Below are positions 3,669 through 7,301 of a DNA stretch of 43,701 nucleotides, piece after piece. Origin of the DNA: Candidatus Omnitrophota bacterium (GTDB taxonomy: Bacteria > Omnitrophota > Omnitrophia > Omnitrophales > JACQQS01). The DNA is taken from assembly GCA_016206925.1 (NCBI GenBank), contig JACQQS010000067.1:1-43701 (forward strand), given 5' to 3'. The translations under genes and the position numbers were made by a program. The first letter of the stretch is position 1. Every line of letters starts with the position of its first letter. The notes beneath the pieces are model-generated. The model ran no database searches and was not told where the DNA came from. It was given only the letters and a program-made list of their open reading frames with translations.

Positions 3669-3823
3669 CGGTTTCAATAGCTTTTAATTCGGTAAAGCAA
3701 TAAGAAAACTATTTAGAGAGGTAATTTGTAGCTCTATTTGGCACATGTTAGACTTCATACGGACATTCAATGGGGCCCGGAGCCTGCCACCCGACCTGTT
3801 GCAGAGCTCCGGAAGGACGTCAA

Positions 3824-4537
3824 ATGACCGAATGGATTCAGAGAAATAGGCTTGGAATTAAAAAACTCCGCAAGCGCTTACGCGGCATAGCGCTGTATGA
3901 AACCCTGCTGGCTACTTTTCTTTTCACCGCAACGACATTGGCTCTGGTTGCCTCCACGGCGGGTATTTACCGTTTGAATGAAGACAAAAGCGCCTTAAAC
4001 TCGGCGGTGGCCGGATCCCATTCCCTGATCGAGCAGATACTGGCTTCCGACTTCAACAGTTCTCTCTTTTATAACCCGAATGGTTCATCCATTACCATTG
4101 CGGGGACAGAGGTACCCGCTACGGCCAATATCCTCGGTCTTCAATACCAGCTGACCTGGTCGAAGGTAGATGACTGCACCCGTATTTACCACCTCAAATG
4201 CACCTGGATGGACGGTGAAACACAGCGGGAATACAAAACCAACACCATCAAGACCTGCCTTGAGTTTGATAAAAATGTGGCTTTCTCCTTCGGGCCTAAC
4301 GGTGAACCTTTAAACGATGAAGTGTACGATAAAATACTAAAGGGTATGGGGCTTAAGGAGCCCGATCCTACACCCAGCGCCACACCCACGCCTACACCAG
4401 CACCCACGGCTACGCCTTTACCCACTCCAACGCCGCCCTCCATACCTACACCGACTCCAAGGCGAGAAGGTGGACCTAAAGAGGGCGAATTCTTTGGAAC
4501 CGACATTGATCCGGCGCCGTTGCCACCAACGGGGTGA
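3824..4537 (+). CDS. Pseudopilin/PilV-like protein with Pro/Thr-rich tail
   Basis: 237 residues from ATG at 3824, chosen over an upstream in-frame ATG (3770) because GGAAGGA sits 7 bases before it. The N-terminus is a class III (prepilin) signal: basic leader ending RKRLRG, then [20 protein letters not shown], with Gly21 as predicted cleavage site and Glu26 at mature position +5. It would be processed by prepilin peptidase and assembled or exported by a type IV pilus or type II secretion-like machine. The middle region has two Cys pairs near [11 protein letters not shown] and KTCLEF. The C-terminal 70 residues include about 30 residues of Pro-Thr repeats, a likely extended linker, followed by an acidic tail. 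First of three pilin-like genes in this cluster. Confidence 0.8.
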
Positions 4538-4700
4538 TCCCTAAGAGACATAGTAGCTTTATTTTATGTAAAGCGCCTAAAGCAATATCTTTACATATCT
4601 ATGCAAAGATGAGCACAACTTGCATTTTGGGCATGAGCCTGTTACGCTTTACATGTAGTTATACGGACGATCTTTGTTAGGTAATTTGCAAATTCTTGCT

Positions 4701-4815
4701 AAAGGCAAAGCTAGCGTAAGCTAGCGACGTTCGGTGCAGACACCTGCACCGGACCCACGGAGTAAAACCTCCGGGGGCAAAGCCATAGGGCCCCTCCCAC
4801 GGGCAGCCTGGCCGC
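4701..4815 (+). ncRNA. Candidate GEMM-I-like (cyclic dinucleotide) riboswitch with a 48-nt insertion
   Basis: The left part reads GGCAAA (4704-4709), then GCTAGC-GTAA-GCTAGC (4710-4725), a hairpin capped by a GNRA tetraloop, then GACG (4726-4729). The right part reads CAAAGCCATAGGGCCCC (4778-4794) and GGGCAGCCTGGCCGCC (4801-4816). These blocks, in this order, are what I recall of the c-di-GMP-I/GEMM consensus (GGCAAA, GNRA hairpin, GACGCAAAGC, GGG-C, AGCC-GG-NCC). In the consensus GACG and CAAAGC are contiguous; here 48 nt (4730-4777) are inserted. The insert folds into two hairpins, 4730-4753 (10 bp, ACAC loop) and 4755-4777. GEMM riboswitches commonly control pilin genes, which fits the gene downstream. 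A covariance-model search is the decisive test. Confidence 0.55.
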
Positions 4816-4816
4816 C

Positions 4817-4849
4817 AAGAAACGAAGTTCGCAATTGCGAACAGTTTTC
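4817..4849 (+). promoter_or_regulatory. Hairpin between aptamer candidate and terminator
   Basis: The sequence contains a perfect inverted repeat GTTCGC-AATT-GCGAAC (4827-4842), extended outward by AAGAAAC pairing with GTTTTCTT. It lies between the riboswitch candidate and the terminator at 4860-4901, where an expression platform would be expected. Its role is inferred only from position. Confidence 0.4.
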
Positions 4850-4859
4850 TTTCCGCGAA

Positions 4860-4901
4860 GCCGGGTATCCATGTGGGGGTTGGATACCCGGCATTTTTTT
4901 T
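4860..4901 (+). terminator. Strong intrinsic terminator in the leader of the second pseudopilin gene
   Basis: A 12-bp perfect stem (GCCGGGTATCCA at 4860-4871 with its complement at 4881-4892) encloses a 9-base loop and is followed by A and eight T (4894-4901). The start codon of the next gene is only 11 bases beyond the T-run. The position between riboswitch candidate and gene suggests regulated read-through rather than a simple end of the previous transcript. Confidence 0.85.
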
Positions 4902-4911
4902 GGACACTAAC

Positions 4912-5790
4912 ATGAAACTGATGAAAAGCATTTCAAAAATTTATAACTGGACCGAGGAGCGCCGAGAAGGCTGTGTGACCCGCACTGTCCTCGCTCGAAG
5001 AACCGGAGTTTTGAGCCGCCTCAAAAATTGCCGCGGCTTTAACATTGCCGAGGTTATGGTTTCGGCAAGCGTTCTTTCCACATTCATGGCTTTAAGCTGC
5101 GGCAGTCTGGTTCAATATCAAACCGCTTTCGGGCGCGTAGAGCGCACAATGACCTACACCCAGCAGCTTCAAACCGGCCTGGATCTCATGGCACAGGATA
5201 TTTCGGAAAGCAATCTCAACACATTTACCGACGAACGCGGCGTGGCACTGGAATTTCCAATCGACCTTTCGTCAGGACCTGCTTACTTCAAAGTAGCTAA
5301 CGGAACAAACGCTCACGGAGCCAATCGCTACAGCAATTATCGAATTGGCTTATCCGTAAACCCCGATAAGCAACTCGTGCGGGAAATCGTTTTCGACTTG
5401 GGGCCGCTTGCACGAGTTACTTCGACAAAAATACTCGCAACCCACGTGGAAAGAGTAATTCTATCGCGCGTTGCCGAAGACAGTTCAACCTTCATATCAA
5501 ACGCTTTGTCTGCGCACATTGCTTCTACGTCAATTCTTTCGACCAAGGAGCAAGCTATGCGCGATTCCGCCTCACAGTCCAGCAGCCAAGGCCAAACCTG
5601 CGGGGAAGGCGAGGAAGCCAAAATCGTGCAGATAGGAGGACGAGAAGTCAGATTGTGTGTAAGAGTTGGAAATTTGGGAACCAACGGCACAAATGAAGGC
5701 CAAGGGGTGGTGGAAGGAACATCCACAAACACAAACTCCAACGAAAAAACGAATGTCACTTTGGAGCGTGTTGTACGTCTGAACAACTAA
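4912..5790 (+). CDS. Pseudopilin (PilW/PilV-like) with long leader
   Basis: 292 residues from ATG at 4912; the ATG at 4873 lies inside the terminator loop and is rejected. No convincing ribosome binding site precedes 4912. Residues 36-63 (RLKNCRG then FNIAEVMVSASVLSTFMAL) form a prepilin signal with Gly42 as cleavage site and Glu47 at mature +5. A 42-residue leader is unusually long. The mature region (QQLQTGLDLMAQDISESNLN, then beta-rich) resembles PilW/GspJ-type minor pseudopilins that help initiate pilus or pseudopilus assembly. The C-terminal third is rich in Ser, Gln, Thr and Asn and contains two Cys near GQTCGEGEEAK and VRLCVRVG. Probably co-transcribed with the PilX-like gene 26 bases downstream, behind the riboswitch-terminator leader. 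Confidence 0.8.
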   Translation: MKLMKSISKIYNWTEERREGCVTRTVLARRTGVLSRLKNCRGFNIAEVMVSASVLSTFMALSCGSLVQYQTAFGRVERTMTYTQQLQTGLDLMAQDISESNLNTFTDERGVALEFPIDLSSGPAYFKVANGTNAHGANRYSNYRIGLSVNPDKQLVREIVFDLGPLARVTSTKILATHVERVILSRVAEDSSTFISNALSAHIASTSILSTKEQAMRDSASQSSSQGQTCGEGEEAKIVQIGGREVRLCVRVGNLGTNGTNEGQGVVEGTSTNTNSNEKTNVTLERVVRLNN

Positions 5791-5816: not shown

Positions 5817-7301
5817 ATGTCCAACCTAAGAAAATCGGCGGGAAATAATCGAGGAAGCGCACTTCTCATCGCGATGGGAATGGTGTTCCTAGTAGGCGCC
5901 ACCACAAGCGGCCTCTTCTACCAGGGAATCACTCATTCCCGGTTCGGTGAACGGACGCTCGCGCAAACCAGGGCGCTTGAACTCGCAAACTCCGGCCTCG
6001 AGCTGGCTCGTTACACATTGAGGCATTCGGCCAGCGACTGTTTCAGCAGCGAAATTTCCAGCCGGACGATCTTTGACCGGATTCCTCTGGGAGATGACGG
6101 GCATTTCAGGGTGGAAGTATTTGCAATTCCAAATGATTCCTACACCGCCCGCGTCGTCAGCACGGGCACGTACACGCTGAGTGACACAAAGACCCAGGTG
6201 GAAGCAAAGATGACCTGCGGCTACCTAAGCGCCCTAGACAGCTATGCCATTGTCTCGGGCGGCGATTTATTCGTGAGCGGCTCTGTGACGGTGGAGAATG
6301 GCGATTACGAATACAATGGAATACACGCGGAGGGAACGATTACCTTTCTCGGCAGTGTAGAGTTGCCGTCAAACGGGTTTACCATTACGCAAACGGCACC
6401 GGTTACAACCCCCCCACCGGGAGGTGCTGCCGTAACGCCGGCAACAACTCCGCCGGTCATTCCTTCGGCAAATACTTCGGCTCCAGCAAATGCTTCGGCT
6501 CCGGCAGGTGTTACCGTAACGCAGACAACGACTCCGCCGGTCATTCTTTCGGTAAATGCTGCAGCTTTTGAAGAGCATAAAACAACGTATTTCCCTGGGA
6601 TCGCGGGGAAAACGCAATACAATTTCAAAGCTGATGGAAGCGTGACGGACGGCGACGGCCAATTAGTTCAGTCCGCCTGTTTGCCCTGCACGGCCCGAGA
6701 CACACACAGCTACAAGGGCGTAGCTTACACTCCACCTCCCGCAGGTTCGAGCAGCGACGCTGCCTGGTCCGTCGTTGATCCATCGGCCGTCACGGAAAAC
6801 GCAACCTATAGATTCAAGGATGTCAATCTGAATGTGACTCGGGAAGTCGGTACCGATCTCAATCCCTTTCCCATCTTGCTTGTCGTGGAAAACGGAAACC
6901 TCACTGCATCTAAAAAAATGGTCCTGACCGGGCTGGACGATATGCAAACAAAGATTTCGCGGCCTCTCAGTATTCTTGTCGAGGGTACCTCCACATTCGA
7001 GAAAGGCCTAAGCCTTCACAACACTACCCTCGTTAACGGCGGTGCGACGGTAATCGCCAAGACACTGAATTTAGCCGACAGCGCATTAATTACTTCAGAC
7101 GATGTGACGCTGGCCGCTCTTCATTTTGAGGAAAGCTACGACGGCAGTCCTATTATTCACAATGAAGAGAAGCACGGCGATATGCTCAAAAAGGAAGGGG
7201 TATACTCCGAGTATTCATTCGGCGAACGGGTCGCGGAAGATGTTACGGTAAAAACGCCATTACAAGAGAAAATGGACCGCGGCCAAACCGCCGCACAATA
7301 A
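5817..7301 (+). CDS. PilX-like secreted protein with Thr/Pro repeat region
   Basis: 494 residues. Residues 12-32 (RG then SALLIAMGMVFLVGATTSGL) resemble the N-terminus of PilX/GspK-type minor pseudopilins, which lack Glu+5 as here. Residues 40-125 carry helical and beta segments ending in a Cys at MTCGYL. Residues 130-185 are Gly-rich beta repeats (AIVSGGDLFVSGSVTVENGD). Residues about 190-245 are a low-complexity Thr/Pro/Ala segment built from imperfect repeats (TTPPVIPSANTSAPANASAP and a second copy). The remainder is beta-rich, compatible with a beta-helix or adhesin-like fold. Third gene of the pilin cluster, probably an exported tip or adhesin component. Function beyond that is unknown; the start is chosen as the first ATG, with poor RBS support. 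Confidence 0.7.
   Translation: MSNLRKSAGNNRGSALLIAMGMVFLVGATTSGLFYQGITHSRFGERTLAQTRALELANSGLELARYTLRHSASDCFSSEISSRTIFDRIPLGDDGHFRVEVFAIPNDSYTARVVSTGTYTLSDTKTQVEAKMTCGYLSALDSYAIVSGGDLFVSGSVTVENGDYEYNGIHAEGTITFLGSVELPSNGFTITQTAPVTTPPPGGAAVTPATTPPVIPSANTSAPANASAPAGVTVTQTTTPPVILSVNAAAFEEHKTTYFPGIAGKTQYNFKADGSVTDGDGQLVQSACLPCTARDTHSYKGVAYTPPPAGSSSDAAWSVVDPSAVTENATYRFKDVNLNVTREVGTDLNPFPILLVVENGNLTASKKMVLTGLDDMQTKISRPLSILVEGTSTFEKGLSLHNTTLVNGGATVIAKTLNLADSALITSDDVTLAALHFEESYDGSPIIHNEEKHGDMLKKEGVYSEYSFGERVAEDVTVKTPLQEKMDRGQTAAQ
6431..6557 (+). repeat. Two 43-bp direct repeats inside the PilX-like gene
   Basis: Segments 6431-6473 and 6515-6557 differ at about 5 of 43 positions and are offset by 84 bp (28 codons), so the repeat preserves the reading frame. 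They encode the TPPVI-type Thr/Pro-rich units of the protein. Confidence 0.75.

Follow-up and report, generated by a model that had tools for sequence, protein, structure and literature searches.

A probable two-hairpin subtype of the class-I c-di-GMP riboswitch in the Omnitrophota, with a ligand pocket predicted to be intact

In the class-I c-di-GMP (GEMM-I) aptamer Vc2, the partner of C44, a base of a P2 internal loop, is G83, which bulges out of P3; G45 forms a pair with C22 and is contacted by A49, and the bases that touch the ligand are G20, C92, A47 and A48 (PMC3764141). The cGAMP GEMM-I RNAs are known specificity variants of this class (PMC7266159). In Rfam, the c-di-GMP-I family RF01051 combines a P1-P2-P3 junction, a GGCAAA block, a GNRA-capped P2, GAC joined directly to GCAAAG, and a P3 with an AGCC/GCC end, and its members sit in the leaders of pilin and surface genes, where they are coupled to terminators. 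A second family, c-di-GMP-I-GGC (RF03167), has the consensus CGAAG with G47 as its hallmark, and cGAMP variants are expected to carry A20.

The window analyzed here is a 43,701-nt stretch of the forward strand of a Candidatus Omnitrophota contig (JACQQS010000067.1), in which a leader lies between the end of one gene (3770–4537) and the ATG of the next at 4912, all features being on the plus strand. The original prediction had read positions 4701–4901 as a GEMM-type leader, and folding and alignment recovered every core block that it named, together with a 6-bp P1 that it had overlooked. The 5′ strand of this P1, TTCTTG (4693–4698), is a perfect complement of CAAGAA at 4816–4821. It is followed by GGCAAA (4704–4709, positions 10–15 of the RF03167 model), which provides G20 (4704 G), G21, C22 (4706 C) and A23–A25 and pairs as G21–C46 and C22–G45, and then by P2 (4710–4725), a hairpin of 6 bp with a GTAA loop of the GNRA type that covaries in relatives. 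GAC (4726–4728) ends in C44 (4728 C), whose expected tertiary partner, following the pairing in PMC3764141, is G83 (4806 G). In the alignment to RF03167 and RF01051, and with the numbering of the same paper, GCAAAG (4777–4782) supplies G45 (4777 G), C46, the ligand-stacking base A47 (4779 A), A48 and A49. P3 (4782–4812, paired at 4782–4784/4810–4812 and 4787–4789/4807–4809) carries the A4805–G4806 bulge that contains G83, and J3/1 with C92 (4815 C) and the P1 3′ strand complete the aptamer (4813–4821). Further downstream, a linker hairpin, GTTCGC/GCGAAC (4827–4842), and an intrinsic terminator (4860–4901; GCCGGGTATCC ... GGATACCCGGC followed by a T-run, with arms at 4860–4870 and 4882–4892) are found by folding, and the leader has a folding z-score of -6.0 relative to dinucleotide shuffles.

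Between C44 and G45, a position in the P2 internal loop in Vc2 numbering, sits an insert of 48 nt (4729–4776) that folds into two flush hairpins, an arrangement adopted by only 6 of 200 shuffles of the same insert. Hairpin A (4729–4754) has 11 bp and an ACAC loop, and an equivalent helix is present in the 98 inspected relatives; hairpin B (4755–4776) consists of 2 bp, a bulged A and 5 bp, and abuts both hairpin A and G45. The hairpins had been predicted at 4730–4753 and 4755–4777: the pair itself stands, with its edges moved slightly, and the G at 4777 is part of the core, as G45.

At gathering thresholds, Rfam reported tRNAs alone in the window and not the aptamer. The best family at relaxed thresholds was RF03167 (27.1 bits, E 1.4e-4, cut-off 59), with a match covering the full length of the model and reading the insert as an unmodelled gap; the window was absent among the RF01051 matches at E <= 0.001 in a whole-genome search, and it scores under the cut-offs of both families (35 bits for RF01051). 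R2, a covariance model whose nine source aptamers all lie outside the window's order, matched the leader at 68.6 bits (E 3.2e-17) as its sole match in the 43.7 kb, and scored two sister loci in the same genome, C45 and C8, at 74–80 bits. The P1/P2/P3 plan, the GNRA loop, the ligand contacts G20, A47 and C92, and the bases for the C44–G83 and C22–G45 pairs are all shared with RF01051. In contrast to that family, GAC and GCAAAG are not directly joined, and because the insert separates them we file this aptamer as a structural variant of RF01051 and not as a plain member. RF03167 differs in its CGAAG and in having no insert, whereas the window reads CAAAG; the cGAMP variants have the same fold, while the window carries G rather than A at position 20.

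Judged by its sequence, 4693–4821 is a class-I c-di-GMP aptamer with all of the usual core blocks. Even a leader lacking an aptamer would have this terminator and strong hairpins, and the region might then be just a stable pseudopilin mRNA leader; with c-di-GMP-I family models matching at full length and every ligand-contact block retained, we consider this very improbable. To the whole reading, in which the leader would work in cis as a class-I c-di-GMP riboswitch, of a subtype with two flush hairpins and an intact pocket, and is predicted to act as a pseudopilin OFF switch, we assign a probability of roughly 0.78.

In the window's own genome, RF01051 gives a good score to a single ordinary aptamer (C53, 56 bits) and lower scores to several others. 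Two loci of this genome, C45, which lies just above the threshold at 35.2 bits, and C8, carry the same two-hairpin insert, with sequences unrelated to that of the window. A covariance model made from these three members (R1) recovered 24 aptamers with the insert from 14 genomes of the window's order, and many long matches across 384 genomes of the phylum, 60 of which were retrieved and read. A further 13 phylum members read by eye agree with the two-hairpin plan, for an inspected total of 98 (24 from the order, 73 from the rest of the phylum and a single one from a genome that lies outside the phylum). Inserts into riboswitch loops are common, and an ordinary aptamer could have acquired one by chance at a single locus; this explanation is refuted by the recurrence of an identical position and two-hairpin plan in the 98 inspected members, and we leave it almost no probability. 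The original prediction of a GEMM variant with a two-hairpin domain beside the ligand pocket is supported, and neither of the outcomes that it had named as refuting was seen: the leader matches a covariance model, and its blocks are conserved in relatives. Of 20 strong members tested, 5 had their insert aptamer recognised at Rfam gathering thresholds, scores of the subtype falling mostly below the 35-bit cut-off, and because curated models miss the other 15, the phylum's c-di-GMP regulons are under-annotated.

Outside the home phylum sample, one insert-bearing aptamer (L297) comes from a genome reached via an Elusimicrobia record. GEMM aptamers occur in tandem at L193:1378-1654, L247:1355-1626 and L008:1103-1617, where a copy that is a variant or carries the insert stands beside an ordinary or weaker one. 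A looser sequence-pattern scan of genome contigs returned 120 records that proved to be chance matches or ordinary tandem aptamers and were set aside.

All 24 order members carry the insert between GAC (C44) and GCAAAG (G45), and 23 of their 24 folds have two top-level hairpins. Counting pairs by script from the hairpin ends, not from the MAFFT alignment, the outer five pairs were formed in 119 of 120 cases for hairpin A and in 106 of 120 for hairpin B, with many pair types, and the split-optimised pairing score was 224.4 against 171.5 +/- 3.7 in shuffles (maximum 183.6 of 500). In the phylum set, the inserts fold as two stems in 58 of 60 members and have zero nucleotides between the hairpins in 59 of 60, though the constancy of two hairpins is partly selected for, because the matches read were those of long span and high score picked by R1, which itself includes both hairpins; of the two exceptions, L260 reflects a parsing error. 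Across the inspected members, a linker is nearly always lacking both between the hairpins and toward the core. In the R2 alignment, 91% of cells pair against 70.9% when shuffled, and double-sided changes are seen in both insert helices. The covariation score of this alignment is 0.647, against 0.238 shuffled and <=0.17 when the pairing is slid by 1–3 columns; covariation in the two hairpins, which the original prediction had put forward as a check, was thereby found. This phylum-wide covariation indicates selection on the pairing of the insert. At the level of sequence, these comparisons establish the subtype as widespread in the phylum, with core blocks and insert position kept, insert stems that covary and loops that vary.

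The contacts of the pocket are conserved alongside the insert. A rough scan found G20 unchanged in 75 of the 79 members scored, and C92 in 79 of 80; A47, for which that scan was confounded by hairpin loops, was read directly in the parsed set, whose search pattern requires A47. In four members (L248, L249, L278 and L279) C22–G45 is replaced by U22–A45, and because both bases switch together, this pair still closes over the insert. Retention of G20, A47 and C92, of the GNRA loop and of G83 makes c-di-GMP our best guess for the ligand. We infer that the insert points outward, as a structural appendage that stabilises the junction and leaves the pocket intact, and for this reason the ligand would remain c-di-GMP. 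Two flush hairpins in one strand of a helix would create an arrangement like a four-way junction that lets the host helix keep its coaxial stacking; with one inserted hairpin this would be less easy, which could be why two are kept. The original prediction had suggested that the insert possibly alters ligand choice or adds a second input; such an input could be another ligand, a protein or an RNA contact. Its proximity to A47 and G20 and the A20 of a few members (L199, L221 and L288) would suit such a role or a shift in specificity, for example to cGAMP, but the window and nearly all relatives keep G20, A47 and C92, and in the members read no conserved sequence able to form a second pocket was found in the insert loops, the inner stems or most insert bases. 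The suggestion is thus unsupported, and we regard it as improbable.

A search of the literature, with subscription papers and Rfam full alignments outside its scope, found no description of a two-hairpin GEMM-I insert, and we rate the insert-bearing aptamers, structurally a variant within an established riboswitch class, as new. They matter because a ligand pocket that has been studied in depth accommodates a large insertion of two helices no more than two base pairs away from its ligand, and in this phylum often carries one. The rule of two hairpins without a linker is a testable principle of RNA domain insertion that could guide aptamer engineering.

A different question is where the hairpins came from. 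REPIN and Rickettsia palindromic elements are small paired palindromes that spread in genomes and within RNA genes, and the hairpin pair, which resembles them in being a pair of small palindromes, could be the trace of such doublets landing in structured RNAs and intergenic DNA, tolerated there and not functional. REP families have been described (PMC3733652). Several observations point in this direction: in several relatives, CCGCCA..TGGCGG palindromes are enriched genome-wide over a control (55/0 in G205, 15/0 in G286 and 10/0 in G008), flush doublets also occur outside riboswitches, as in tRNA-like D-loops (L319, L331, L350 and L363), palindromes specific to a lineage reappear among its riboswitch hairpins (L242, L246, L249 and L262; L273, L283, L288 and L289), and a second insertion site in P2 also holds two hairpins. 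Against this, many insert-bearing genomes have no CCGCC doublets (0 in G230, G181, G106 and G245), and the window's insert is single-copy in its genome and unrelated to its two sister inserts; some relatives do have the multiple copies expected of a dispersed doublet, but for the window a REP origin was rejected as unsupported. Moreover, unlike REPIN and Rickettsia elements, the hairpins are fixed at one riboswitch position while being unrelated in sequence within a genome, and their stems covary across the phylum at that exact position, which neutral relics would not keep. We consider a purely tolerated relic possible but doubtful.

Origin and present role are separate matters, and because riboswitch hairpins resemble the repeat family in doublet-rich lineages, they may originally have been captured mobile palindromes whose role is now structural. 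Tentatively, and with a probability well short of even, the phylum-wide subtype could have arisen through structured RNAs capturing mobile palindromic doublets again and again. A flush doublet would then enter a helix as a four-way junction with the fold unbroken, in tRNA D-loops and at the second P2 site as well, and structured RNAs would be a landing ground for palindromic doublets.

Dispersed CCGCC/GGCGG palindromes or doublet junctions are present in G205, G286, G291, G272, G008 and G029, and also in G018, G011, G122, G007 and G012; they are strongly enriched over reversed-pattern controls and are possibly a REPIN-like element family. The doublet TCCGCC..GGCGGA CCCGCC..GGCGGG was seen in the D-loop (AGCTCAGT-insert-GGTTAGAGC) of tRNA-like fragments or degenerate copies (L319:217-420, L331 on the minus strand, L350:1470-1600 and L363:270-420), which adjoin intact or normal-looking tRNAs. 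The second GEMM-I insertion site lies in the P2 5′ strand and is filled with hairpins, mostly two, in L008 (own contig C83), L009 (own contig C40), L214, L207, L223 and L296; L207 has inserts at both sites.

Folding of the leader points to how the aptamer could control transcription. The terminator 5′ arm can alternatively pair with the P3 3′ strand (4806–4812) as an antiterminator, with a duplex energy of -14.6 kcal/mol. When the growing transcript is folded, P1 and P3 are formed to about 4845, the P3 3′ strand can leave the aptamer once the terminator 5′ arm appears, and the full transcript forms the terminator. In the unbound state, the P3 3′ strand would pair with the terminator 5′ arm and RNA polymerase would read through, while c-di-GMP would lock P3 and P1, letting the terminator form and turning the downstream pseudopilin genes off. 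Because the P3 3′ strand competes for the terminator arm, a ligand that locks P3/P1 should favour termination, and thermodynamic folding of this one leader, whose terminator alone is very stable, predicts an OFF switch. Among the relatives, a terminator-like hairpin lies within about 200 nt downstream in 57 of 82 members, compared with 6 of 82 equal upstream stretches; a simple scan found no such site in 25 of the 82. The genome encodes five GGDEF domains.

The terminator had been placed just before a pseudopilin gene, and this was confirmed for a gene best called pseudopilin-like: hairpin (4860–4892) and T-run precede the ATG of 4912–5790, the presumed regulated gene, whose product (GFNIAEVMVSASVLSTFMALSCG) has a prepilin-like N-terminus. 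That product has a weak NCBIfam match to TIGR02599 (E 0.0014, far below cut-off) and no match found in Pfam, and its identity as a pseudopilin is weakly indicated. The next gene (5817–7301) has a weak match to GspK-like minor pseudopilins (NF037980, E 4.5e-4, below cut-off), and the translation of the upstream gene (3770–4537), for which no Pfam match was found, likewise begins with a prepilin-like N-terminus. Downstream of 75 members we found prepilin-motif proteins (8), response regulators (4) and DPBB/RlpA proteins (3), as well as transglutaminase-like and LapG-type proteases and many secreted proteins; the pseudopilins, response regulators and transglutaminase-like or LapG-type proteases would suit control by c-di-GMP. 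Small proteins with the motif RVVTFLNRxExDFLDKxxKD recur as the downstream ORFs of L242, L246, L277, L283, L285 and L286, where they adjoin insert-bearing riboswitches; they have no convincing match in Pfam or NCBIfam and are perhaps a new family of c-di-GMP-linked regulators.
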